From assembly GCA_902500995.1 (NCBI GenBank), contig CABVSR010000014.1, positions 24,842 through 88,841 of the forward strand: a stretch of DNA of 64,000 nt. The letters run 5' to 3'. The first letter of the stretch is position 1; each line of letters opens with the position of its first letter. The stretch is from an uncultured Nitrospira sp. Its GTDB lineage: Bacteria; Nitrospirota; Nitrospiria; Nitrospirales; Nitrospiraceae. The notes under the pieces were generated by a model. That model was not told the DNA's origin. It was given only the letters and a program-made list of their open reading frames with translations, and ran no database searches. The position numbers and the translations under genes were made by a program. Below, one piece after another: positions 3,127 through 41,631 of this stretch.

Positions 3127-4881
3127 TTACTCTCCCTGTTGATTTGCAGTGGTTTTCGCGAACAATGCCTGGCGTTGATGGTAGTACCCGATCGCAAAGC
3201 GTCCTTGATCACCAAGGCTCATATGAGCAGGGAAGTCGTTCACTTCCTCCATAATCTGGCCGATCAGACGCTCAAAACTTACTTTCCGTCCTGGATTCTG
3301 AAGCTTTGCGAGGTGATGGTTCTTTAATTTCATGAGAGTAGGAAATACTGTCACGGGCGTGGCTGACGCTGATCCATAGAAGCGATCACGAATCGTGGCA
3401 TTGAGTCCGGGATTTGCCTCCTCCTGAGCTTTTTCAAGGACCGCAAACAGGCACCCCAGGCGATACCCTGAATTTCGGTTGCTTAGATCAAGTGCCACGG
3501 CAATCTCCTTTTCGTGTGACATTTGTATGGTACGGTTCTGACGGTTCAAATACGCCTTGAGAATGGCCGCGCGCGGATACGTTACCTCGCGTTCAGCCCG
3601 GATGCGGCGCACAGCGTTTTGCAGCAACGATGCAGGATATCGCTGCCCCGAGAGAATAGCTTGCATGAGTTCTCCGCCAAGATTAGGCGGAATATTGTCG
3701 CTCTTATTCTGTACAGCGGTAGCCACAAGAAGTCGGAATACGGAAAGGCAAGGCTTCTCGTATGGCGGGCGATCAATCTCAATGTCAACGAAATGCTGTT
3801 GAATGGTTTTCGCCAATGCTGCCACGGTGCCGACATGCCAAAAGCGAATGGCGATACGCGCAGCATTAGGGCTTAGCCCAAGTACAAAAAAGCGTGTCTG
3901 ATCATCATCGACGGGTGCCACACCATGGCGTGGCGCTTGGTATAGCGCCTTGAGGGCTCGCACCGCACGATCGGGATCATCCTTTGGCGGCTCAGCGAAA
4001 AGATCAGCGAACTGATCCTCTAATGAACTGGGTTGATCTGCCCAGAATACAGTAGATGCATCGCCCACCTGAATGCGTTGTTTGCTGTCTCTTGCCAACA
4101 GGCAATTGACCGCTGTGGTGTAGGCGAACGCGGCCTTCTCCCCAACCGGCGCATTGGAGCCTTGCTTCTTACCCCACGAAGTAAAGGAAGGCAGATTAAA
4201 GGACACGACATTGGCTCCGGATGTTTGAGCGCCCCATACGCCTTTAATGGCAGGATGCAGACGTTCAATTTGTGTCGCTTTTCCTGTGATGAGGCAGATG
4301 CCATCCCCATCTTGTGCACTCTCCGCTTCCGTCATGGCATCACTTACTGATGGGCGCTGACACACCAGTTCGAGATCACCTTGCAAACGAAACGTCATAT
4401 TTGGATTGGTACTTCTGATCTCTTCCCACACCTCACCAAACCGCTGCAGGTCGGCAGGTTTTGTGTTATCGAAGAACTTTAAAACAGCCCGCACACCTTC
4501 ATCGGCTTGAACTCTTTCCGGCAAAGCTTTCACGGCATCAACGAATGCCGCATGCATTTCTTTCAAGCGGTCCCCATAATCTCCTTCCTTGCCTTTTCCT
4601 TTCCTGTCAGCCAGCTTCTTCTCGTCGGGCAACCCGAGGACGTACTCGGCATTGCCCCACAGTATATTGGCAGCTACATTGACAGACTTTTTTGCTGCTT
4701 GCGGAAGAAGATAATTCTTTGCTCGCTTCTTTTTTCCATCGAGACTGCGAGTATCTTCGATCTGAACGACCGAGCCGGTCTTGCTCACCTCGATCACAAA
4801 TGGAATTTCCCTAGACTCGAACCCCTCTCGTGGCAGCTCGGGTTTACGTTGATAGTAGTCGTACAGTGCCTGAAGGATCAT
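3127..4881 (-). CDS. cas8c: Type I-C Cascade large subunit Cas8c (Csd1)
   Basis: Cas8c is the large subunit of type I-C Cascade and recognises the PAM during DNA targeting. The 584-residue protein begins [12 protein letters not shown], the usual start of Csd1, and contains [22 protein letters not shown] and [21 protein letters not shown], regions characteristic of the family. I chose the ATG at 4881 because GAGGAGG lies 8 bases upstream and the resulting ATGA overlaps the cas5 stop. An in-frame codon 24 bases earlier is less likely. In other type I-C systems the small Cas11 subunit is made from an internal start in this gene; I did not identify that start here. Confidence 0.94.
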
Positions 4882-5615
4882 CCCCGCACCTCCTCGCTTT
4901 CCCATGCAGGGACCATGACGGTACCATTCACCAAACGGGCCTGGAAGAAGCGCGGTTTGGGATCAGCGGGATCGCTGTAATCCATGTCGTACAGCATCCA
5001 GCCAAGATGCCGCGTTTCTTCGATAGGCGCAGGCTCAGTCTGCACGTCAGCTACTAACCTGAATGCGCAGGCAAACTCGCGGCAACCGAGATAAGGCTGA
5101 TTAACGCACTGTCCCCGTGAAGCACGTCTCTCAAACATGCTCATGAACTTCACCGCGTTGTTGTCGGGCAACGCGAGCAGATCTGCCTCGCCACTACTAA
5201 TTGGAACCTTGGAGAGATGCGGAAAGTACGGTTTATGAAAGCTTGGGTCGCTGAGTTCAAAGTGCGCATGGATGCGATAGGCCACGTCTCGCAGAAATAG
5301 TCCCGCTCGTTGTTGGCGCTCGTCTTCAACATAGATCCCTAGGTCGCCGGAGCCAATGCTCATCGCAGCTTGAACATTCCGCGTTGAAGCCACAGCCCCT
5401 ACTTCATTCCGCCGGACACTGATCCACGTGATCGGTTTCAGCACTTCGATCTTGGTCACTCGCCAACGGATGGCTGGTTTCCAGATGATCGCCTCAAAGA
5501 TCGCTCGGGCAGCCGATGGTGTCATCACGTCGTAAGAGACACGCTCGACCTTCATTTCTGGTCGCGTAAAGCAGGCAAAGTCTCCCGCCACTTCAAGACA
5601 ATAGGATTTGCGCAT
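4878..5615 (-). CDS. cas5: Type I-C crRNA endonuclease and Cascade subunit Cas5c (Cas5d)
   Basis: In type I-C systems, which lack Cas6, Cas5c cuts the pre-crRNA at the base of the repeat hairpin and caps the 5' handle. The 245-residue protein has the family's N-terminal pattern (VAGDFACFTRPEMKVERVSYDVMTPSAA in outline, with the Tyr typical of the active-site region) and LRDVAYRIHAHFEL in the middle, where the catalytic basic residues lie in homologues. I favour the ATG at 5615 because AGGAAC precedes it; an upstream ATG at 5627 overlaps the cas3 stop as ATGA and is possible. No cas6 is present, consistent with this role. Confidence 0.93.
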   Translation of the reverse strand: MRKSYCLEVAGDFACFTRPEMKVERVSYDVMTPSAARAIFEAIIWKPAIRWRVTKIEVLKPITWISVRRNEVGAVASTRNVQAAMSIGSGDLGIYVEDERQQRAGLFLRDVAYRIHAHFELSDPSFHKPYFPHLSKVPISSGEADLLALPDNNAVKFMSMFERRASRGQCVNQPYLGCREFACAFRLVADVQTEPAPIEETRHLGWMLYDMDYSDPADPKPRFFQARLVNGTVMVPAWESEEVRG

Positions 5616-5623
5616 AGCGTTCC

Positions 5624-7864
5624 TCATACAATCAGTTGAGTTACATCCAATGTGCCGCCCACAGTCACACCGATTTTGTCATCGTATAGAGTGCTAACCG
5701 CCTGACCAAAGATCCCAGGGTAAACCTCTGATACTTCTCCGTCTGCGACGAGTTTGTCGACCACACGGCGAGGAAGGTTGACGCTATATCGTTGCAACTT
5801 GCGCATGAGCCAGCGCTCAGGCCCATCCCTCTTGAGTTTTCCGAGCAGCGTTTGGCTTTCGCCATACCAGACAAGGATGGCTTGGGTCTCGACATCATCG
5901 ATGAGCCTGAACCTCTCAGCGGCGGTGCGGAATTGAATTTTAAGCTCTCTCGCATCTCTGGTCAGCAAATCGCTAATGCCATATTTATCGAGCGAGTCTG
6001 CCATTCCATAGAAATGCTCGAAATATTGGGTGAACAATCCTCTCCTCATGGGGTCAACTCCGCTGCCGCTCATGAGGCTGATCGTTGTTTGCTCTGCCTT
6101 TCGAAGCGTGCCGGGAGGCGACTGTTTTGGCGGCATGAACACAACGACTTTGCCGCGATTCAGTCGGCCCTCGCGGTTACAGCGCCCGGCAGCCTGGGCA
6201 ATTGAGTCCAAGCCGGATAGGGCGCGGTATACCACAGGGAAATCGATATCCACACCGGCCTCGACGAGCTGTGTGCTGATGACACGCGTTGGGACGTTCT
6301 TCCTTAATCGTTCTCGTATGTCTTTAATGACCAATGATCGATGTTCTCCGCACATCGCAGCCGACAGATGAAAGGTGCCGTCCGGCATGAGCCGGTGCAA
6401 TTCGCGACAGTTCGATCTGGTATTCACCACGGCCAAGACCGAATCATGCGTCGTTAGTTCAGCGGCGATTTCTTCCCATTCCTGCCGCGCATGAAAGTCT
6501 TTCGGCATCTCGACTGTCACACGTTCCAGGTCGCGGTACAGTGCATTCGGGTCTGCGATGATTTCATGCACACGATTCAGCCCTCGAAAAGTCCACCCGA
6601 GCCCTTCGCGCGAGTACAAGGCAGGTTGAGTCGCAGTAGACAGAACGAACGTGACGCCATAGTGCTGTGCCAAGAGGTTGATGATGTCTAGGATTGGCTG
6701 CATGAACTCTAGGGCCAGAAGCTGCGCCTCATCCAGAACCACAACGCTGTTCACGATGTTGTGAAGCTTGCGACAAGCAGAAGTCCTGGCCGCGAATAGC
6801 GACTCAAAAAACTGCACATTGGTTGTGACAATTACAGGTGCATCCCAGTTTTCTGAGGCCAAGCGGCTTTTGGCGGTTTCCTTCTCCGGATCCAGATTAC
6901 TGTGATGTTCAACAACGCTATCACCAAAGATGCCTCTGAACACTCCGGCCGTCTGCTCGATGATGCTGGTGTAGGGGATGACGTATATGACTCGGCGTTT
7001 CTTGTATTGAACTGCATGCATAAGGGCGAAGGTTAAACTTGACAGTGTCTTACCACCACCAGTTGGAACGGTAAGTGAGAAGATACCGGGCGAGTCTGAG
7101 GCACGTTCGCTGCACTGCCGAAGGACGTCGGCTCTCGCGCGGTTGACGACAGATGGCATAGCCCCAGCGGTCAGCATCGTCATGTGTTGATTCAGTTGAT
7201 CAAGCAGCATGCTCAAAGAAAGGAACTGCCCACGAGGCAACGCGGTCTTACCGTTCATGAAGCTCTCTGTATCAAGGAAGTCACCGTCAACCAGACAGGA
7301 AAAGAGCATCCGCAGCCAAAGTGCAAGGCCGGTTTCTCCGCCCAATGGTTTGTTGCTTGGAATAATCGCAGGATGAAGCACATCAGCAGGAACCCTCGCG
7401 CTAGAGATAGCTTTCAAGTGCTGCTTATCTTCTAGGCGGTTAGAAAGAGATGAAAGGGCATGCTCGTCCGCATGCCAATCCGGCAAGCCAGCATGATGAC
7501 CAGCGATCAGATAGGCCAGAATCCTCCCTTTCACGCCGAGCTCCTCGAGAGCATGGAGCGCGCCGGCGGAAGAGTGATTCACCCGTCCCTTCCCGCCTTC
7601 AATATGCGCTTCTGGATCAAAACCACTTTCACGAGCTATATAGCCTTGGAAGGCCGAAGAATACTTTCCGAGGTCGTGCCAGAGTCCTGCCAACTGCCCC
7701 CAATCCGAAGCCCCAAAGTCTGAGGCATACCCACCTGTGAGAGCAGCCACCGCACGCAGATGATCGTCAAGATCATGAATAACAAACGATCCATCAGCAC
7801 TCGCACGGACGTGCGCCAGATAATGCCTTTTAGATTCCTCTGAATAAAACTCAGTTGAATTCAT
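5624..7864 (-). CDS. cas3: CRISPR-associated helicase-nuclease Cas3
   Basis: Cas3 is recruited by target-bound Cascade to nick, unwind and degrade DNA. The 746-residue product carries an N-terminal HD nuclease domain (WHDLGK at 62-67; further His at GHHAG near 122) and an SF2 helicase with Walker A GGGKT (269-273), DEAQ box (378-381) and motif III STATQ (409-413). The RNVPTRVISTQLVEAGVD region is motif V-like. Nuclease and helicase are fused, as usual for type I-C. The start has an AAAGGTG site about 13 bases upstream, inside the end of the small gene before it, suggesting shared transcription. Confidence 0.96.
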   Translation of the reverse strand: MNSTEFYSEESKRHYLAHVRASADGSFVIHDLDDHLRAVAALTGGYASDFGASDWGQLAGLWHDLGKYSSAFQGYIARESGFDPEAHIEGGKGRVNHSSAGALHALEELGVKGRILAYLIAGHHAGLPDWHADEHALSSLSNRLEDKQHLKAISSARVPADVLHPAIIPSNKPLGGETGLALWLRMLFSCLVDGDFLDTESFMNGKTALPRGQFLSLSMLLDQLNQHMTMLTAGAMPSVVNRARADVLRQCSERASDSPGIFSLTVPTGGGKTLSSLTFALMHAVQYKKRRVIYVIPYTSIIEQTAGVFRGIFGDSVVEHHSNLDPEKETAKSRLASENWDAPVIVTTNVQFFESLFAARTSACRKLHNIVNSVVVLDEAQLLALEFMQPILDIINLLAQHYGVTFVLSTATQPALYSREGLGWTFRGLNRVHEIIADPNALYRDLERVTVEMPKDFHARQEWEEIAAELTTHDSVLAVVNTRSNCRELHRLMPDGTFHLSAAMCGEHRSLVIKDIRERLRKNVPTRVISTQLVEAGVDIDFPVVYRALSGLDSIAQAAGRCNREGRLNRGKVVVFMPPKQSPPGTLRKAEQTTISLMSGSGVDPMRRGLFTQYFEHFYGMADSLDKYGISDLLTRDARELKIQFRTAAERFRLIDDVETQAILVWYGESQTLLGKLKRDGPERWLMRKLQRYSVNLPRRVVDKLVADGEVSEVYPGIFGQAVSTLYDDKIGVTVGGTLDVTQLIV

Positions 7865-7883
7865 GTGCGATGGTCACACCTTT

Positions 7884-8138
7884 CTACGACATTTCTTCGA
7901 CGTTCCTGCTGCCAATCTGCCTGAAAACCGCTACGCACTCATCCTTCGGCTGGCGCCTCAGAATACACGTGAAGAACTTCTTTTCATCCTTCTGCATTCT
8001 CCTGACTGGTTCACCTTTCGAAGCCGGCGACTCCATCGGTTCAGCAGCCGTGCGTTTGGACAGGCTGAAGATTGCGCCCACCGCGAGAGCGACCATCGCT
8101 TTCCCCAACTGGCGTCGATCCAAGGTTTGCTGATTCAT
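7884..8138 (-). CDS. Small hypothetical protein with N-terminal membrane or export segment, upstream of cas3
   Basis: This 84-residue frame starts at an ATG preceded by AAAGGGTGGGACAAG, a good ribosome site, and stops 19 bases before cas3. The N-terminus reads DRRQLGKAMVALAVGAIF: two arginines followed by about 15 hydrophobic residues. This could be a Tat-like or plain signal, or one membrane span. The remainder is basic, with Cys in FFTCILRRQPKDEC. I do not recognise the family. The spacing and shared strand suggest cotranscription with the cas operon, but a chance frame is not excluded. Confidence 0.45.
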   Translation of the reverse strand: MNQQTLDRRQLGKAMVALAVGAIFSLSKRTAAEPMESPASKGEPVRRMQKDEKKFFTCILRRQPKDECVAVFRQIGSRNVEEMS

Positions 8139-8187
8139 CTTGTCCCACCCTTTCACTCGCGCATCCATCACCATCGACATCCACGAT

Positions 8188-8487
8188 TCATCTTGTTGCT
8201 TCTTCTGCATCGGTTTCTTCGCCGTACGGCGTGTCCATTCTGCCCACCATCCAAATCGTTTCGTCAGGATCAAACTGGTCATCCTCACGCGCCAGCGGCA
8301 CCGCGATGCAATGGCCATCCTTGCTATGCCGTTTCAACTCTGACTCCGTCACCGCAAGGTACACATCCCGATTGCATTGGAAACAATGCCGCACGCTTGC
8401 TTGAGCCGTCGGCTCTAGCTGCTTCCAGAGTTGCGGACAGATAAATGCGAATCGGCATCTGATCCTCGCTTCGTCATCCCAACCCAT
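8188..8487 (-). CDS. Small Cys-rich hypothetical protein, possible start of the cas transcript
   Basis: The 99-residue product starts at an ATG with GGGAGGA five bases upstream. It holds four cysteines in a zinc-site-like arrangement: C11, C17 (FICPQLW), C35 and C38 (HCFQC). Then come ELKRHSKDGHC and an acidic tail. The CPxxWxxLxxT...C..C...V...EL..H pattern resembles a widespread uncharacterised small protein, which I recall only generally and cannot name. It ends 49 bases before the 84-aa gene on the same strand. A metal-binding role is an inference from the cysteines. Confidence 0.6.
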   Translation of the reverse strand: MGWDDEARIRCRFAFICPQLWKQLEPTAQASVRHCFQCNRDVYLAVTESELKRHSKDGHCIAVPLAREDDQFDPDETIWMVGRMDTPYGEETDAEEATR

Positions 8488-8570
8488 CTCATCCTCCCAA
8501 CGGCAGCGCACTGTAGCAAACACGATGACAGCCGTCCCGCAAAAAATTTCGATTTATGCCTAGGTGAAAG

Positions 8571-8584
8571 CCTAAACCTTTAGG
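8571..8584. repeat. Short inverted repeat CCTAAA-CC-TTTAGG
   Basis: Six-base perfect arms with a two-base spacer in the divergent spacer. It resembles a small operator, though chance occurrence of arms this short is plausible. Confidence 0.35.
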
Positions 8585-8609
8585 TTCCTGCCGCGTACCG
8601 TACCATTGC

Positions 8610-8632
8610 GTTGTGACATCCGGGGTCACAAC
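8610..8632. repeat. Inverted repeat GTTGTGAC-7-GTCACAAC
   Basis: Eight-base perfect arms (8610-8617 and 8625-8632) flank the 7-base spacer ATCCGGG. The geometry resembles a dimeric regulator site. It lies 188 bases upstream of the caspase start. Confidence 0.5.
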
Positions 8633-8684
8633 TGGGGCGGATTCACAAAATATTTTTCGTAGCAAGACGGGCGACATCCCCGAG

Positions 8685-8708
8685 CAGAAAATACAGGTAT
8701 TTTCTGCG
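8685..8708. repeat. Near-continuous 24-bp palindrome, 11-bp arms with 2-base centre
   Basis: GCAGAAAATAC (8685-8695) and GTATTTTCTGC (8698-8708) are perfect reverse complements separated by AG. Eleven matched pairs with a two-base centre are unlikely by chance. There is no T-tract after it, so a terminator is unlikely; the two-base loop also disfavours an RNA hairpin. A DNA operator for the caspase gene or the cas side is the more natural reading. Confidence 0.6.
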
Positions 8709-8820
8709 CCTCCGCCGTTGACAGACGGCTTCGTTGAGACTACCGTACCGCCGTCGGCCGACCGGCCGATTTGTCTCTGTCCACTGATCGACGACGAGGC
8801 CACCAGCCAGGGAGGTACGT

Positions 8821-37190: not shown

Positions 37191-38147
37191 CTACCGCGCG
37201 GGATGCGCGGATGGGAGCCTGGCCAGCTCCGTTTCCAACCGCGCAAGCTCTCCAGCTCGATCCATCTTTCTCGCGGAAGCCATAGCCTGCCCCAACGCAG
37301 ACCTGGCTTCCGCAAACGCTCCCTGCGCCAAGTAACTTCGGTAGGCCCGCTCCGCATAGGCCAAGGCTCGATCGGGGAGTCCCCGCCGGTCCGTTATCCT
37401 GCCCAATCGCAACAGATCGGCCGCAATCTCCATCCGTTGTTCCGCCGCCTTATCCAGCTCCAGGGCGCGCTCATATTCCCGTTCGGCCGCCTCGTAGTCC
37501 TGGCGCGCTTCGGCAAGCATGCCGAGGTTCACATGGTTACTGGCTTCGGATTCCAGCTTCCCCATGGCCTGATTCAAAGCCATGGCTTGACGGAACAGCT
37601 CCGCAGCCTGCGCCACTTCACCCTCGGCCTGCCGTACTAGGCCAAGATTGTTCCGGAGCGTCGCTTCGGCTGAGCGATCGGCGCTCTGCTGCGCGAGCTC
37701 CAACGCCTCTGCATAGCGCCGTCCTGCCTCTTGCAGACTCCCCGCTTGATGCTCCGCCGTAGCCAAGGCGGTCAGACTGTCGAGCAGAAGACCAGGCTCG
37801 CGCAGCTGTTGCGCCAAGAGCACGGCTCGCTCGTGCGAACTGACCGCCTGAGCAATCTCCCCGCGCCGGAGGGCGACACGTCCGATCTCGTTGAGCGCGC
37901 CGATGAGGCTCTTCGTATCGTCGAGGCTTTCCGCCAGCCGGCGAGCCGCTTCATAGGCCTCCCCGGCGCGTGGCAGATCTCCTCGCATCATCGACCGATC
38001 ACCCTCGCGCCGCAAGGATTCGCCCTGCGCGGACAACGGTCCGGCTTGTGGCACGGGGACAGGCGGCGGCTGGGTTCCACATCCCGACCACAGGCACAAG
38101 ACCATGGCGCAGAATCCCGCCGCCGAACCAGGGGTGATCGCGCTCAT
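37191..38147 (-). CDS. TPR-repeat lipoprotein next to the Mla genes
   Basis: The 318-residue product has a lipoprotein signal ending LWSGC (Cys23) and a Pro-rich stretch, followed by about six tetratricopeptide repeats (GALNEIGRVALRRGEIAQAV, NNLGLVRQAEGEVAQAAELF, NLGMLAEARQDYEAAEREYE in outline). TPRs mediate protein contacts. Its ATG overlaps the mlaD stop by 4 bases, so it is the last gene of the mla operon and probably an outer-membrane or periplasmic partner of that system. Confidence 0.85.
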   Translation of the reverse strand: MSAITPGSAAGFCAMVLCLWSGCGTQPPPVPVPQAGPLSAQGESLRREGDRSMMRGDLPRAGEAYEAARRLAESLDDTKSLIGALNEIGRVALRRGEIAQAVSSHERAVLLAQQLREPGLLLDSLTALATAEHQAGSLQEAGRRYAEALELAQQSADRSAEATLRNNLGLVRQAEGEVAQAAELFRQAMALNQAMGKLESEASNHVNLGMLAEARQDYEAAEREYERALELDKAAEQRMEIAADLLRLGRITDRRGLPDRALAYAERAYRSYLAQGAFAEARSALGQAMASARKMDRAGELARLETELARLPSAHPAR

Positions 38148-39133
38148 CGACGCAGCTGATCTCCTCTCAAACTTTGCGTGCCCTCCCGGAAGGATGAGGG
38201 TGGCTCCTTCGGCGCCGGCCCCGCGTTTTGCGCAAACCGGTTAAAAGGAAAGGTGTGCTTGGCACCGCGCACCAGAATCGACATGTCGGCCAGGGTGGTC
38301 TCGGCCGTATGAATGACAGGCGCCAATTCCCGGCTCACGTCAGTGACGGAATCGGACAGGCGCTTGACGCTGGTGAGCGTGGATTCCGCGCTGTTGAGAA
38401 TCTCCGGCAGCCGGCCGGTGGTCTGTTGCACATCCGCCGTCACACGATCGACCATGCTCAACGTCCGCTTGATGGAGCCGGTCATCGCCGGCAGTGCGGT
38501 AGCCGTTTGCTCCACCGACGCGATCGTGCGCTGCACCGAGGCGACAACCGCCGGAAGATCTTGCGTGGCCAAGGCGACCTGTTCGAGCGCTTTGCCGCCG
38601 GCCTTTAACCCGCCCTGCATATCCTCGGTGATGGTTTCCACGCGCAGCAACGTTTGCTTGACGGCCATCAGCACCGGCTCGACCTCACTGAGCAGATCGC
38701 CGATATCCCTCGGCTCAACGGCCCGGATGGTGGCGCCTGCGCTCAACACCGGACTGCTGGCAGTACCCATGCCGATTTCCACCTGTGTCTGCCCGACTAC
38801 GACTCCGCTTTTGGTGATGCGCAATTCGGAATTGTCCTTCACCATGTCCTGATAACGAGCCAAGAGCTGGAGGGTCAGATCGACCGTGCCGCGATCGTTG
38901 AGGTCGACCTGTTTGACCCGCCCGATCCGGATCCCCGAGACGACGACGGGCGCGCCGGGCTCGAGGCCGTACGACTTACTGAGGCTGGCCTTGAGGAGAT
39001 ACTTCGACTCGAACAGATGTTCCGTCCTCGACATCCAAAACCCCGCCACGGCCAGAATCACCGCGGGGATCAGCACGAATGTGCCCACGATCTGCGCCAG
39101 CCGTCCGCTGGACAGACGATGCGAATAGTGCAT
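38144..39133 (-). CDS. mlaD: MlaD-like MCE-domain protein
   Basis: MlaD-type proteins form hexameric rings that carry phospholipid between the Mla inner-membrane complex and periplasmic carriers. The 329-residue protein has one N-terminal membrane helix (QIVGTFVLIPAVILAVAGFW), an MCE domain at about 43-125 (LKASLSKSYGLEPGAPVVVSGIRIGRVKQV in outline), then a long coiled-coil region rich in Thr and Val. That coil is longer than in E. coli MlaD and could bridge more of the periplasm. Confidence 0.9.
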   Translation of the reverse strand: MHYSHRLSSGRLAQIVGTFVLIPAVILAVAGFWMSRTEHLFESKYLLKASLSKSYGLEPGAPVVVSGIRIGRVKQVDLNDRGTVDLTLQLLARYQDMVKDNSELRITKSGVVVGQTQVEIGMGTASSPVLSAGATIRAVEPRDIGDLLSEVEPVLMAVKQTLLRVETITEDMQGGLKAGGKALEQVALATQDLPAVVASVQRTIASVEQTATALPAMTGSIKRTLSMVDRVTADVQQTTGRLPEILNSAESTLTSVKRLSDSVTDVSRELAPVIHTAETTLADMSILVRGAKHTFPFNRFAQNAGPAPKEPPSSFREGTQSLRGDQLRR

Positions 39134-39139
39134 GATCGA

Positions 39140-39901
39140 TCACCTTTCCATTCGGCAAGACTCCACCGGCTTGTCCACATATCGCCGCAGCGGGGCCGGA
39201 ACCATCTCCCCCACCGCATCACGGGTCCCGTCGGCAGCCACACGCCCCTCGTGAAGGACGACCAGCCGATCGGCTGCTTCGACGAACGGCGACCAGCCGC
39301 GCAACGCCGCGAGCACCGTCAGGGGGCGGCGAGCCCGCCATTCATCGACGTAGGTTGTGAGTTCCACCACCATATCGGCGTCTAATCCGGCTACCGGATC
39401 ATCGAGGAGCAGAAGATCCGGCTCCAGCATCAAGGCCCGCGCGATGGCCCCCCGGCGCGCTTCACCCTGGTTGAGCTCAGCTGGAAACCGGTCTCGCAGA
39501 GAAGCCAGACCTAGCCGCTCCAACTGGCTCATGACCATCTGCTCACGGTGGCGGTCCGGTATGGAGCCGCGATGATAACGGAGCGGCAGAAGCACGTTGT
39601 TGAAGAGCGTCATGTTGCTCAACAACCCCGGCTGTTGCAGCACCACGCCCACCCGCAGCCGGACGGACTTCGGATCATCGTCTGGAACCTGGCGCCAATC
39701 CTGCCCTAAGACCAGCACGCGCCCCGACTCCGGAACAACCAGGCCGGCGGCCAGTTCCACCATCAGACTCTTCCCGGCACGACTCGGCCCGACACAGGCG
39801 ACCCACTCACCCGAGCCAATCCGGAGATCCATCTCCAGATGAGAATCCCCGCCCAGCATGGGCGCGCGGACCTGCTCAAAGATGATGGCCGCGTCGCTCA
39901 T
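39140..39901 (-). CDS. mlaF: MlaF-like ABC ATPase with altered catalytic motifs
   Basis: The 253-residue product matches the MlaF ATPase of phospholipid transport. Walker A (GPSRAGKS, 38-45) and the Q-loop (VLQQPG) are standard. The signature reads LNQGE (143-147) instead of LSGGQ, the position after Walker B holds Asp168 instead of the catalytic Glu, and no switch His is seen at the end of the LTVLAALRGW strand. It may hydrolyse ATP slowly or in an unusual way. The ATG overlaps the mlaE stop (ATGA). A much longer in-frame extension through mlaE is an artefact. Confidence 0.88.
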   Translation of the reverse strand: MSDAAIIFEQVRAPMLGGDSHLEMDLRIGSGEWVACVGPSRAGKSLMVELAAGLVVPESGRVLVLGQDWRQVPDDDPKSVRLRVGVVLQQPGLLSNMTLFNNVLLPLRYHRGSIPDRHREQMVMSQLERLGLASLRDRFPAELNQGEARRGAIARALMLEPDLLLLDDPVAGLDADMVVELTTYVDEWRARRPLTVLAALRGWSPFVEAADRLVVLHEGRVAADGTRDAVGEMVPAPLRRYVDKPVESCRMER

Positions 39902-40677
39902 AGATACAACGGTACCGTCACCACGACATCGAACAGCAGGCAGAGCACAAAGGAATTGATCATCGCGCGGGTCGTCTGTTGCGGCACCTCCGTATAGGAC
40001 GATCGGACGGCCAGGCCATGGTAACAACAGACCGCGGCGACCGCCGATCCAAACCCCAGGCCCTTGAGCACCGTCATGAGCACATCCGTTGTGGACAAGG
40101 CCCTGACGACGCTTCCCGCGAAGGCATCGAGCGGAATGGTCAATTGCGCGTCGGCCACGAGATAGCCCCCGAAGACCGCGACCACATCGAAATAAATCGT
40201 CAGGCACAGCATCGAAAGCACCATGCCGACCATGCGGGGCATGACGACAAACCGGCCGACGGCAATGCCCATGAGCCGCAACGCGACGATCTCGCGTGTC
40301 ACCGACATATTGCCGAGTTCCGTCGCAATGGCCGACCCGGAGCGCCCGACGACGATGAACGCGGTCACCAGTGGACCAAGTTCGCGAATGACCGTCACGA
40401 CGATGATGCTGCCCACCAGCGCCCCGGCTCCGAGCCTGGGAAGTTGTGTGCCGGCCTGGGTCACAATGATGATGCCCAGTAGCAACGCCATGACCGTGGT
40501 GACCGGCAGCGCATCGACCCCCGTGAAGAGTATTTGTCTGATCAATACCCGGAAGGTTTCGCCGCGCCCCTGCCGGGCTGGCATGAGCAGATCGAGCAGG
40601 GCCTGCGCAAACAGGGTGGCCAGTGCCGCCAGATAGGTCCATCCCGCGATGGTCTTCCGCCCCACCCACGTGATCAC
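39898..40677 (-). CDS. mlaE: MlaE-like phospholipid ABC transporter permease
   Basis: The 259-residue permease has five or six membrane segments and the MlaE family core: VTVIRELGPLVTAFIVVGRSGSAIATELG in outline at about 113-140, then MSVTREIVALRLMGI (the coupling helix region) and LPLDAF-like loops. It forms the membrane dimer beneath the MlaD ring. First gene of the operon mlaE-mlaF-mlaD-lipoprotein. Confidence 0.93.
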   Translation of the reverse strand: MITWVGRKTIAGWTYLAALATLFAQALLDLLMPARQGRGETFRVLIRQILFTGVDALPVTTVMALLLGIIIVTQAGTQLPRLGAGALVGSIIVVTVIRELGPLVTAFIVVGRSGSAIATELGNMSVTREIVALRLMGIAVGRFVVMPRMVGMVLSMLCLTIYFDVVAVFGGYLVADAQLTIPLDAFAGSVVRALSTTDVLMTVLKGLGFGSAVAAVCCYHGLAVRSSYTEVPQQTTRAMINSFVLCLLFDVVVTVPLYL

Positions 40678-40870: not shown

Positions 40871-41203
40871 TTATCCCGGTGGGCGGTGCTTGATCACGAA
40901 TTGCTGGATACGCTGGAGTTGCGGAGGACGCATCACCAGGAATTCGACCCCGAACTCTCCGCCTCGCGCCCACCGCACGACGGCCTCCTCCACGCGTACC
41001 GGCCACTCGTGCCCGTCGGATAAGAACACGGAGACTTTCATGCGCAGTCCCGGCGGCAGGGCCTGTTCGGATCTTGCCATGCAGCCGGTGGACGAGAGAT
41101 CCAGCAACTCGGCCTCGCCCTCAAACTCATCTTCGCCGATGTACTCCAGACGGCAATCCGCCGACACCCGGCGGGACTTGCGCAATGTTTTAGCCTGTTC
41201 CAC
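40871..41203 (-). CDS. PilZ-domain protein
   Basis: A 110-residue single PilZ domain: RKSRRVSADC supplies the N-terminal Arg cluster and LLDLSSTGC the (D/N)xSxxG motif that together clamp c-di-GMP. The C-terminal VVRWARGGEFGVEFL is typical of the family. It is one of three PilZ genes within 2.4 kb and the most downstream on the minus strand. Confidence 0.88.
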   Translation of the reverse strand: MEQAKTLRKSRRVSADCRLEYIGEDEFEGEAELLDLSSTGCMARSEQALPPGLRMKVSVFLSDGHEWPVRVEEAVVRWARGGEFGVEFLVMRPPQLQRIQQFVIKHRPPG

Positions 41204-41253
41204 CCGCTCTCCTCTCCGTCATATGCACCACCGTCACAGAGCCGGTTTCCGTC

Positions 41254-41631
41254 CTACTCCATTGCAGGGGCAGCGGCGAGGAACCGGCGTAATCGATCCT
41301 GCTCGGCAGTACCCATCGAGACGAATTCGACGCCAAAATGTCGGCCCGTCCCCCACCGCACCAGCGCCAGATCAACCGCCGTCGGACTGGTCTCCCCTGG
41401 CAGCAGAATAATCAGCGACATGGCATCCCCCACCTTCACCCCCGCCTCGCTGCCGATCATGCATCCGCCGGGCGACAGGTTGAAGATAAGCCCTTCGCCT
41501 TCCTCGTCGCCGTTAAAACTGAGCGTCGGCGCGAAAGGGGCAAAGGACAGCAGGCAGGTCTGAGACACCAGGCACCGGGGGTGCTGCCTGAGCTCGATGC
41601 GAACGGGCGAGACGTTGTTGTCGTGATCCAT
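41254..41631 (-). CDS. PilZ-domain protein
   Basis: The 125-residue protein has LRQHPRCLVS (Arg motif), FNLSPGGCMIGSE (Asn at the Asp position of the second motif, still acceptable for c-di-GMP) and ALVRWGTGRHFGVEF at the end. A roughly 15-residue insertion after the Arg motif (SFAPFAPTLSFNGDEEGEG) is longer than in its neighbours. It is 50 bases upstream of the previous PilZ gene. Confidence 0.88.
   Translation of the reverse strand: MDHDNNVSPVRIELRQHPRCLVSQTCLLSFAPFAPTLSFNGDEEGEGLIFNLSPGGCMIGSEAGVKVGDAMSLIILLPGETSPTAVDLALVRWGTGRHFGVEFVSMGTAEQDRLRRFLAAAPAME

Follow-up and report, generated by a model that had tools for sequence, protein, structure and literature searches.

What becomes of an MlaE-type transporter when the signature, the catalytic Glu and the switch His of its ATPase are all altered? 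The question is raised by a 64,000-nucleotide stretch of contig CABVSR010000014.1 (positions 24,842 to 88,841) from an uncultured Nitrospira sp. (GCA_902500995.1), hereafter the window, in which the MlaF-like ABC ATPase encoded at 39140–39901 departs from the consensus at each of these places. The coding strand is the minus strand, an open frame of 253 amino acids; stop codons interrupt the plus strand. It is the second in a minus-strand run of four genes, arranged head to tail from 40677 to 37191 and called the module here. We propose, with a probability of roughly 0.55, that the four products form a third, divergent MlaEFD-type MCE complex of the cell, in which the ATPase would be folded and docked on the permease and would no longer be a normal ATPase. 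The genes of the module are as follows.

39898–40677, minus strand: MlaE-type permease, 259 amino acids, 4-nucleotide overlap with the ATPase gene (Pfam MlaE, 1.9e-62)
39140–39901, minus strand: degenerate MlaF-like ABC ATPase, 253 amino acids (Pfam ABC_tran, 8.9e-25)
38144–39133, minus strand: MCE-domain protein with a long C-terminal part, 329 amino acids (Pfam MlaD, 2.3e-14, residues 44–121)
37191–38147, minus strand: TPR protein with a lipoprotein-like N-terminus, 318 amino acids, 4-nucleotide overlap with the MCE gene (Pfam TPR)

The ATP site of the module ATPase reads as follows.

39767–39790, minus strand: Walker A, GPSRAGKS, residues 38–45; GxxxxGKS retained, Arg41 for the usual Gly
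39572–39661, minus strand: residues 81–110, including the Q-loop (Gln89 retained) and Tyr109; presumed permease dock, judged from the general ABC fold
39461–39475, minus strand: signature, LNQGE, residues 143–147; Ser144→Asn and Gly145→Gln
39395–39415, minus strand: Walker B, LLLLDDP, residues 163–169; Asp167 retained, Asp168 at the position of the catalytic Glu
39299–39301, minus strand: Arg201 at the position of the switch His

The Walker A pattern GxxxxGK[S/T], the Walker B Asp, the Q-loop Gln and the D-loop Asp (the D-loop, AGLD, is intact) are all present, and the catalytic Glu, the switch His and LSGG are all replaced (by Asp168, Arg201 and LNQG). The sequence-only reading of this gene had pointed to LNQGE in place of LSGGQ, to Asp168 and to a missing switch His, and each of these is confirmed; within the signature, the departures are Ser144→Asn and Gly145→Gln, and the Glu in the fifth place is no defect in itself (that place is Met in E. 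coli MlaF; PMC7367683). Its description of Walker A as intact holds for GxxxxGK[S/T] but not for the ABC form GxxGxGK, in which Gly41 has become Arg. An alignment with MlaF of relatives, which it had named as a check, was made with 41 canonical MlaF paralogs from two other MCE sets, A (21 sequences) and B (20 sequences; the ATPase of one set B locus, in G095, was not recovered). The four columns read Ser, Gly, Glu and His in 41/41 paralogs and not in the module ATPase; the register of the motifs is therefore secure, and a misregistered motif is ruled out.

The module extends well beyond one genome. Its permease was found in 49/235 genomes of the order (E ≤ 1e-45), spread over three families; all 49 places were read, and the ATPase was recovered in each of the 49 genomes. 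Searches with the ATPase matched 35/98 genomes of the family (E ≤ 1e-50) and 33/395 genomes of the phylum (E ≤ 1e-38), every one of the latter inside the order. The closest named relatives of the ATPase, from Nitrospira, are 79–81% identical, and two members of the genus (G018 and G426) gave no permease at the threshold used. In a quick permease tree of the 49 sequences and six paralog rows, the orthologs form a single clade with a Shimodaira–Hasegawa-like approximate likelihood ratio test value of 100.

All ATP-site counts refer to 49 orthologs, row X_G018 having been left out as a canonical paralog. The full set of catalytic Glu, switch His, signature Ser and first signature Gly occurs in 0/49 orthologs versus 41/41 paralogs; 37 orthologs retain none of the four, 11 retain one and a single ortholog retains two. 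Sequencing error or a one-genome oddity is ruled out by these 49 sequences, and conservation of the pattern among relatives, on which the sequence-only reading had made its interpretation depend, is thus found. The catalytic position is Asp in 40, Glu in eight and Ser in one; the switch position is Arg in 36, Ser in five, Asn in five and His in three. At the signature Ser position, Asn (35) and Thr (8) prevail over Ser (2) and others (4), and the first signature Gly is replaced throughout (Gln 26, His 7, others 16, Gly 0). Walker A is defective in 12/49 sequences, two of which combine K44R with S45G, and Lys44 is retained in 47/49. The Q-loop Gln is present in 40/49, the Walker B Asp in 44/49 (gone in five) and the D-loop Asp in 49/49. 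The paralogs have the consensus residue at every one of these positions (41/41). Position 41 is Arg in 27/27 orthologs of the genus and in 42/49 overall, versus 0/41 paralogs, all of which have Gly.

These changes are not distributed evenly. Lys44, Ser45, Asp167, Asp168, Arg201 and the D-loop Asp are fixed in the 27/27 orthologs of the genus, and P-loop defects occur in 12/22 orthologs outside it. On the permease tree, the minimum numbers of changes are four at the catalytic position, six at the switch, 10 at the signature Ser, 18 at the first Gly, six at Ser45, three at the Walker B Asp and only one at Lys44, and by this count the ATP site is altered several times within the clade. Read from the alignment, Nitrospira holds the main nucleotide-binding residues and has its hydrolysis residues fixed in a nonconsensus state; elsewhere, binding residues are lost too.

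The ratio of nonsynonymous to synonymous substitution rates (dN/dS) was calculated by the Nei–Gojobori method; the median synonymous divergence is near 1 and the absolute values are rough. Because set B outside the genus is partly another paralog (31–38% identical to that of the window's genome in G002, G013, G020 and G032), comparison with sets A and B was limited to the 38 genome pairs of the genus in which all six genes were measurable. The medians are 0.185 for the module ATPase, 0.070 for its permease, 0.047 for set A MlaF and 0.108 for set B MlaF, and the module ATPase lies above both canonical MlaF sets in 38/38 pairs. Over 82 pairs of the clade, the medians are 0.198 for the ATPase, 0.056 for the permease, 0.096 for the MCE protein and 0.183 for the TPR protein. 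By these ratios the ATPase is relaxed but constrained, under purifying selection. It also diverges faster than its permease, but the ratio of ATPase to permease distance is no evidence by itself, since set A gives the same ratio within the genus (2.46 and 2.49).

Where the constraint lies is informative. Residues 81–110 are the most conserved 30-residue window of the 49 module ATPases (rank 1 of 224; mean majority share 0.875). In the 41 paralogs this stretch ranks 28 of 224, and the best windows, starting at 140–146, run from the signature to Walker B. In ABC proteins generally, we take this region to be the one that receives the coupling helix of the permease. Tyr109 is found in 49/49 module ATPases where the paralogs have Glu (41/41). 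A matching difference is seen in the permease.

40273–40296, minus strand: coupling-helix region of the permease, residues 128–135 (helix at 129–135 in the model), with Arg and Val for Glu128 and Asp131 of the paralogs

When 38 of the 49 module permeases were compared with 42 paralogs, Glu128 was present in 0/38 versus 42/42, and Asp131 in 1/38 versus 42/42. The ATPase and permease thus look like a specific pair with changed coupling. The buried charge cluster described for MlaE (PMC7790496) is retained, with R98, E99 and K205 in 38/38 and D250 in 37/38 of the module permeases. In the structural models, the ATPase (mean predicted local distance difference test score, pLDDT, 91.7) has a Z score of 29.0 to E. 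coli MlaF 6xgz (root mean square deviation, rmsd, 2.3 over 242 aligned residues), although it fits many nucleotide-binding domains (NBDs), including MlaF, at Z 28–30, and many of these are tied with 6xgz. The permease model (pLDDT 85.9) has a Z score of 29.0 to 6xbd_G (rmsd 2.5, 253 aligned residues); MlaE and Mce1 permeases score 25.7–29.2, one 8.7 Å entry 19.6 and the first other transporter 11.4.

A permease, an NBD and an MCE domain are co-located in the window, as expected of an MCE transport system. The permease scores 211 bits against the MlaE family PF02405 (cut-off 22.5) and the ATPase 88 bits against the ABC ATPase family PF00005 (cut-off 25). Against the MlaF equivalog NF008809 of NCBIfam, the ATPase reaches 103.6 bits and the cut-off is 441; its top NCBIfam match is a different ABC family, likewise under cut-off. 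Other ABC proteins head its matches in NCBIfam and PDB, so MlaF is not singled out by sequence, and the MlaF label is given because of operon context. The MCE protein matches TIGR00996 at 4.2e-20, yet under the cut-off of that model. A lipobox-like motif was found in 29/35 TPR orthologs tested; the copy in the window, outside that test, reads LWSGC. By Pfam, the four genes of the module include neither MlaB (STAS) nor MlaC, no search for unlinked partners having been made, and no second NBD gene.

The genome of the window has three MlaE genes. Set A (contig C12, ~4731–8735) comprises MlaE, MlaF, an MCE match seen solely by tblastn and MlaC, with an Omp85-family protein encoded immediately after it. 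Set B (contig C7, 3214–7439) has a STAS domain in frame upstream of MlaE, an MCE protein and an ABC_trans_aux lipoprotein. MlaF is canonical in both sets, and the module ATPase is therefore not the carrier of the cell's only Mla-like function. The sequence-only reading had spoken of "this Mla system"; the module is not the MlaC-linked Mla set of the cell, which is located elsewhere in the genome and has a canonical MlaF.

How, then, might the module work? Normal turnover is unlikely because Ser, Gly, Glu and His are altered together on one chain. At Glu-to-Asp sites of other ABC proteins, hydrolysis is too slow to sustain transport (PMC7756269). The best reading is that the NBD has been kept on its permease and hydrolyzes ATP very slowly or not at all, which would make the module a nucleotide-gated or ATP-independent lipid conduit. 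The sequence-only reading had suggested slow, regulated or different energetics; the direction stands, and the evidence leans past "slow," since the P-loop damage in 12/49 orthologs and the loss of the Walker B Asp in 5/49 fit a lost need for hydrolysis better than tuning. The TPR lipoprotein, from which that reading expected some help, may or may not contribute to the energetics; it is part of the conserved module (45/49 loci). More tentatively, and with somewhat less than even confidence, we suggest an ABC-type MCE transporter that is hydrolysis-free across the order, its pseudo-ATPase dimer serving as a clamp or ATP-binding gate while lipids flow passively across the envelope. Such a clamp or gate on a passive MCE conduit would be the most economical reading. 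In Nitrospira, where the P-loop Lys and Ser and the Walker B Asp are fixed, the ATPase would still bind ATP, and binding rather than turnover may hold or gate the permease. Six other genera have P-loop defects; there, ATP binding is probably impaired as well, and the ATPase would chiefly be a structural clamp. On this view the complex would be a facilitator in which lipids move downhill between the inner membrane, the ring and tail of the MCE protein, and the TPR lipoprotein, with the direction set by supply and removal at either end and not by ATP hydrolysis. The nearest functional precedent is an ATPase-dead D-loop mutant of TAP, which is a passive nucleotide-gated facilitator (PMC4242082), and lipid transfer from MlaD to MlaC is spontaneous (PMC7790496).

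Several points weigh against a complex without hydrolysis. In E. coli, where MlaFEDB has a Vmax of 126 per min per complex, MlaF E170Q retained ~20% activity, having lost ~80% of its ATPase (PMC7784689), and neither K47A nor E170Q complements (PMC7367683), from which it follows that canonical Mla needs hydrolysis. Conservation of the charge cluster in the module permease proves little on activity because single Ala changes there are without effect in E. coli (PMC7790496). In one ortholog (G004) the catalytic Glu and the switch His both survive, but the Ser of Walker A and the signature are changed. Moreover, the genus has kept Lys44, Ser45, Asp167 and the D-loop Asp, which leaves room for binding and slow turnover, and sites with Asp in place of the catalytic Glu hydrolyze ATP slowly in other ABC proteins (PMC7756269). 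These last observations, together with the fixation of Asp168 and Arg201 in the 27/27 genus orthologs, are what would be expected of a slow but working ATPase, in which Asp168 is a weak base, the signature and switch tune turnover, and ATP drives transport. We consider this rather unlikely: in 37/49 orthologs a single chain carries changes at four hydrolysis or clamp residues, sister lineages of the clade have lost the P-loop or the Walker B Asp, Gly41→Arg lies in the P-loop, and the coupling helix of the permease is altered.

The permease might still be motor-driven if another MCE set supplied a canonical MlaF that paired with the module ATPase or replaced it, as with the shared MceG of mycobacteria, whose Mce systems apparently share one ATPase (PMC10517005); the 35/35 genomes of the family sample that carry the module ATPase have at least two MlaE matches, most of them three or more. 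Yet the ATPase carries changes in each half of the composite site, which would leave a heterodimer with no consensus site, the presumed docking residues of the ATPase and the coupling helix of the permease are unlike those of the paralogs, and the two genes adjoin at 48/49 loci, with a 4-nucleotide overlap in the window; a shared motor seems improbable. Still less credible is a regulatory decoy that occupies the permease and holds it off, because the module in the window has no other NBD gene and a permease kept just for blocking would scarcely be expected to show the strongest constraint among the four proteins (median dN/dS 0.056, 82 pairs). Pseudogene decay of a redundant MCE set would explain why the ATPase evolves faster than canonical MlaF and why the MCE protein of G008 was matched solely from residue 117 on, without an in-frame start, but the median dN/dS of all four genes is well under 1 (82 pairs), which largely refutes decay, and the module is kept in 49/235 genomes of the order and in three families; we give this explanation very little weight.

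As a unit, the module is well preserved. The ATPase gene adjoins the permease gene in 48/49 genomes; in the exception, G083, it lies on another contig, is cut by the contig end, and contig ends fall between the two genes. The MCE gene was seen at 46/49 loci and the TPR gene at 45/49; G020, G380 and, for the TPR gene, G465 end near contig ends. At one locus (G383, ~4291–5831), the permease and ATPase genes are followed by no recognizable MCE or TPR gene in ~5 kb downstream. The gap between permease and ATPase genes is ~560 bases in G015, ~240 in G029 and ~205 in G013, two of these being the K44R/S45G genomes, and at the other tabulated loci the genes overlap or lie within ~50 bases. In a comparison of 38 loci, proS, a GspE-like gene, a PilZ pair, an LpxL-like gene and a desaturase gene are common neighbors at the loci of the genus, contigs permitting. 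The neighbors in the window also stand beside the module in G014 and in part in G002 and G032, and they gave no match in the remaining genera within the stretch examined. As the neighbors vary across genera while the four genes persist, the four genes, and not the region, are the unit. The two PilZ-domain genes lie directly upstream of the module (40871–41631 in the window); they are kept there in the genus loci and in G014, but at the module of most other genera no such genes were found.

Another change at the catalytic position was seen in an Acidobacteriaceae genome (G487), which has a single MlaE match. At its locus (L053, MlaF at 4923–5750), the MlaE, MlaF and MCE genes stand in a row, and the Walker B region reads YDSPTAGLD. 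In the order concerned, this MlaF was matched in 126/150 genomes at 127 places, of which 50 (the 30 best and 20 mostly low-scoring; L220–L269) were examined. The catalytic position is Ser in 49/50 and Glu in one, a second copy in G629 that is 44% identical; the signature Ser is kept in 50/50, the P-loop Lys in the 49/49 sequences that cover it and the switch His in 45/50. Glu→Ser in these bacteria concerns the same residue in a different phylum, as a milder change separate from that of the module.

The step and the direction for which Mla and MCE systems need ATP hydrolysis are unsettled. A selected, natural MCE–ABC complex with altered ATPase sites, which has canonical paralogs in the same cell, makes a role of the NBD beyond hydrolysis testable, and the order offers a graded series from Nitrospira, with nucleotide-binding residues kept, to lineages with a damaged P-loop. 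If our reading is true, nature has removed the motor from an Mla-like machine and kept the rest. No report of a degenerate MlaF was found in the excerpts available from the open-licence PMC literature. The module appears to be a variant of the known MCE/Mla kind, for which the observation is conserved and selected and the mechanism is proposed.

Its resemblance to MlaFEDB of E. coli, Pseudomonas and Acinetobacter lies in the folds of MlaE and MlaF, the gene association of permease, ATPase and MCE protein, and the charge cluster R98, E99, K205 and D250 of MlaE; it differs in the degenerate ATP site, the altered coupling helix, and the TPR lipoprotein in place of STAS (MlaB) and MlaC among its four genes. 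The Mla system of Veillonella parvula likewise has an MlaEFD-type core, proposed as an envelope bridge; the part of its description available mentions neither NBD degeneration nor a TPR protein. MlaC is, to our knowledge, absent there. PqiABC and LetAB are MCE systems that are not known to have an ABC motor. PqiABC combines an MCE protein with an outer-membrane lipoprotein (PMC10897342), but its membrane partner is PqiA and not an MlaE permease with an NBD. The ABC exporters with a degenerate site (TAP, CFTR, MRP1 and TM287/288) share with the module ATPase an Asp or Ser for the catalytic Glu, an altered signature and an altered switch His. In those exporters the changes are split over two NBDs and one consensus site remains (in part from PMC7756269), whereas here a single gene carries all changes, so that a homodimer would have two altered sites.
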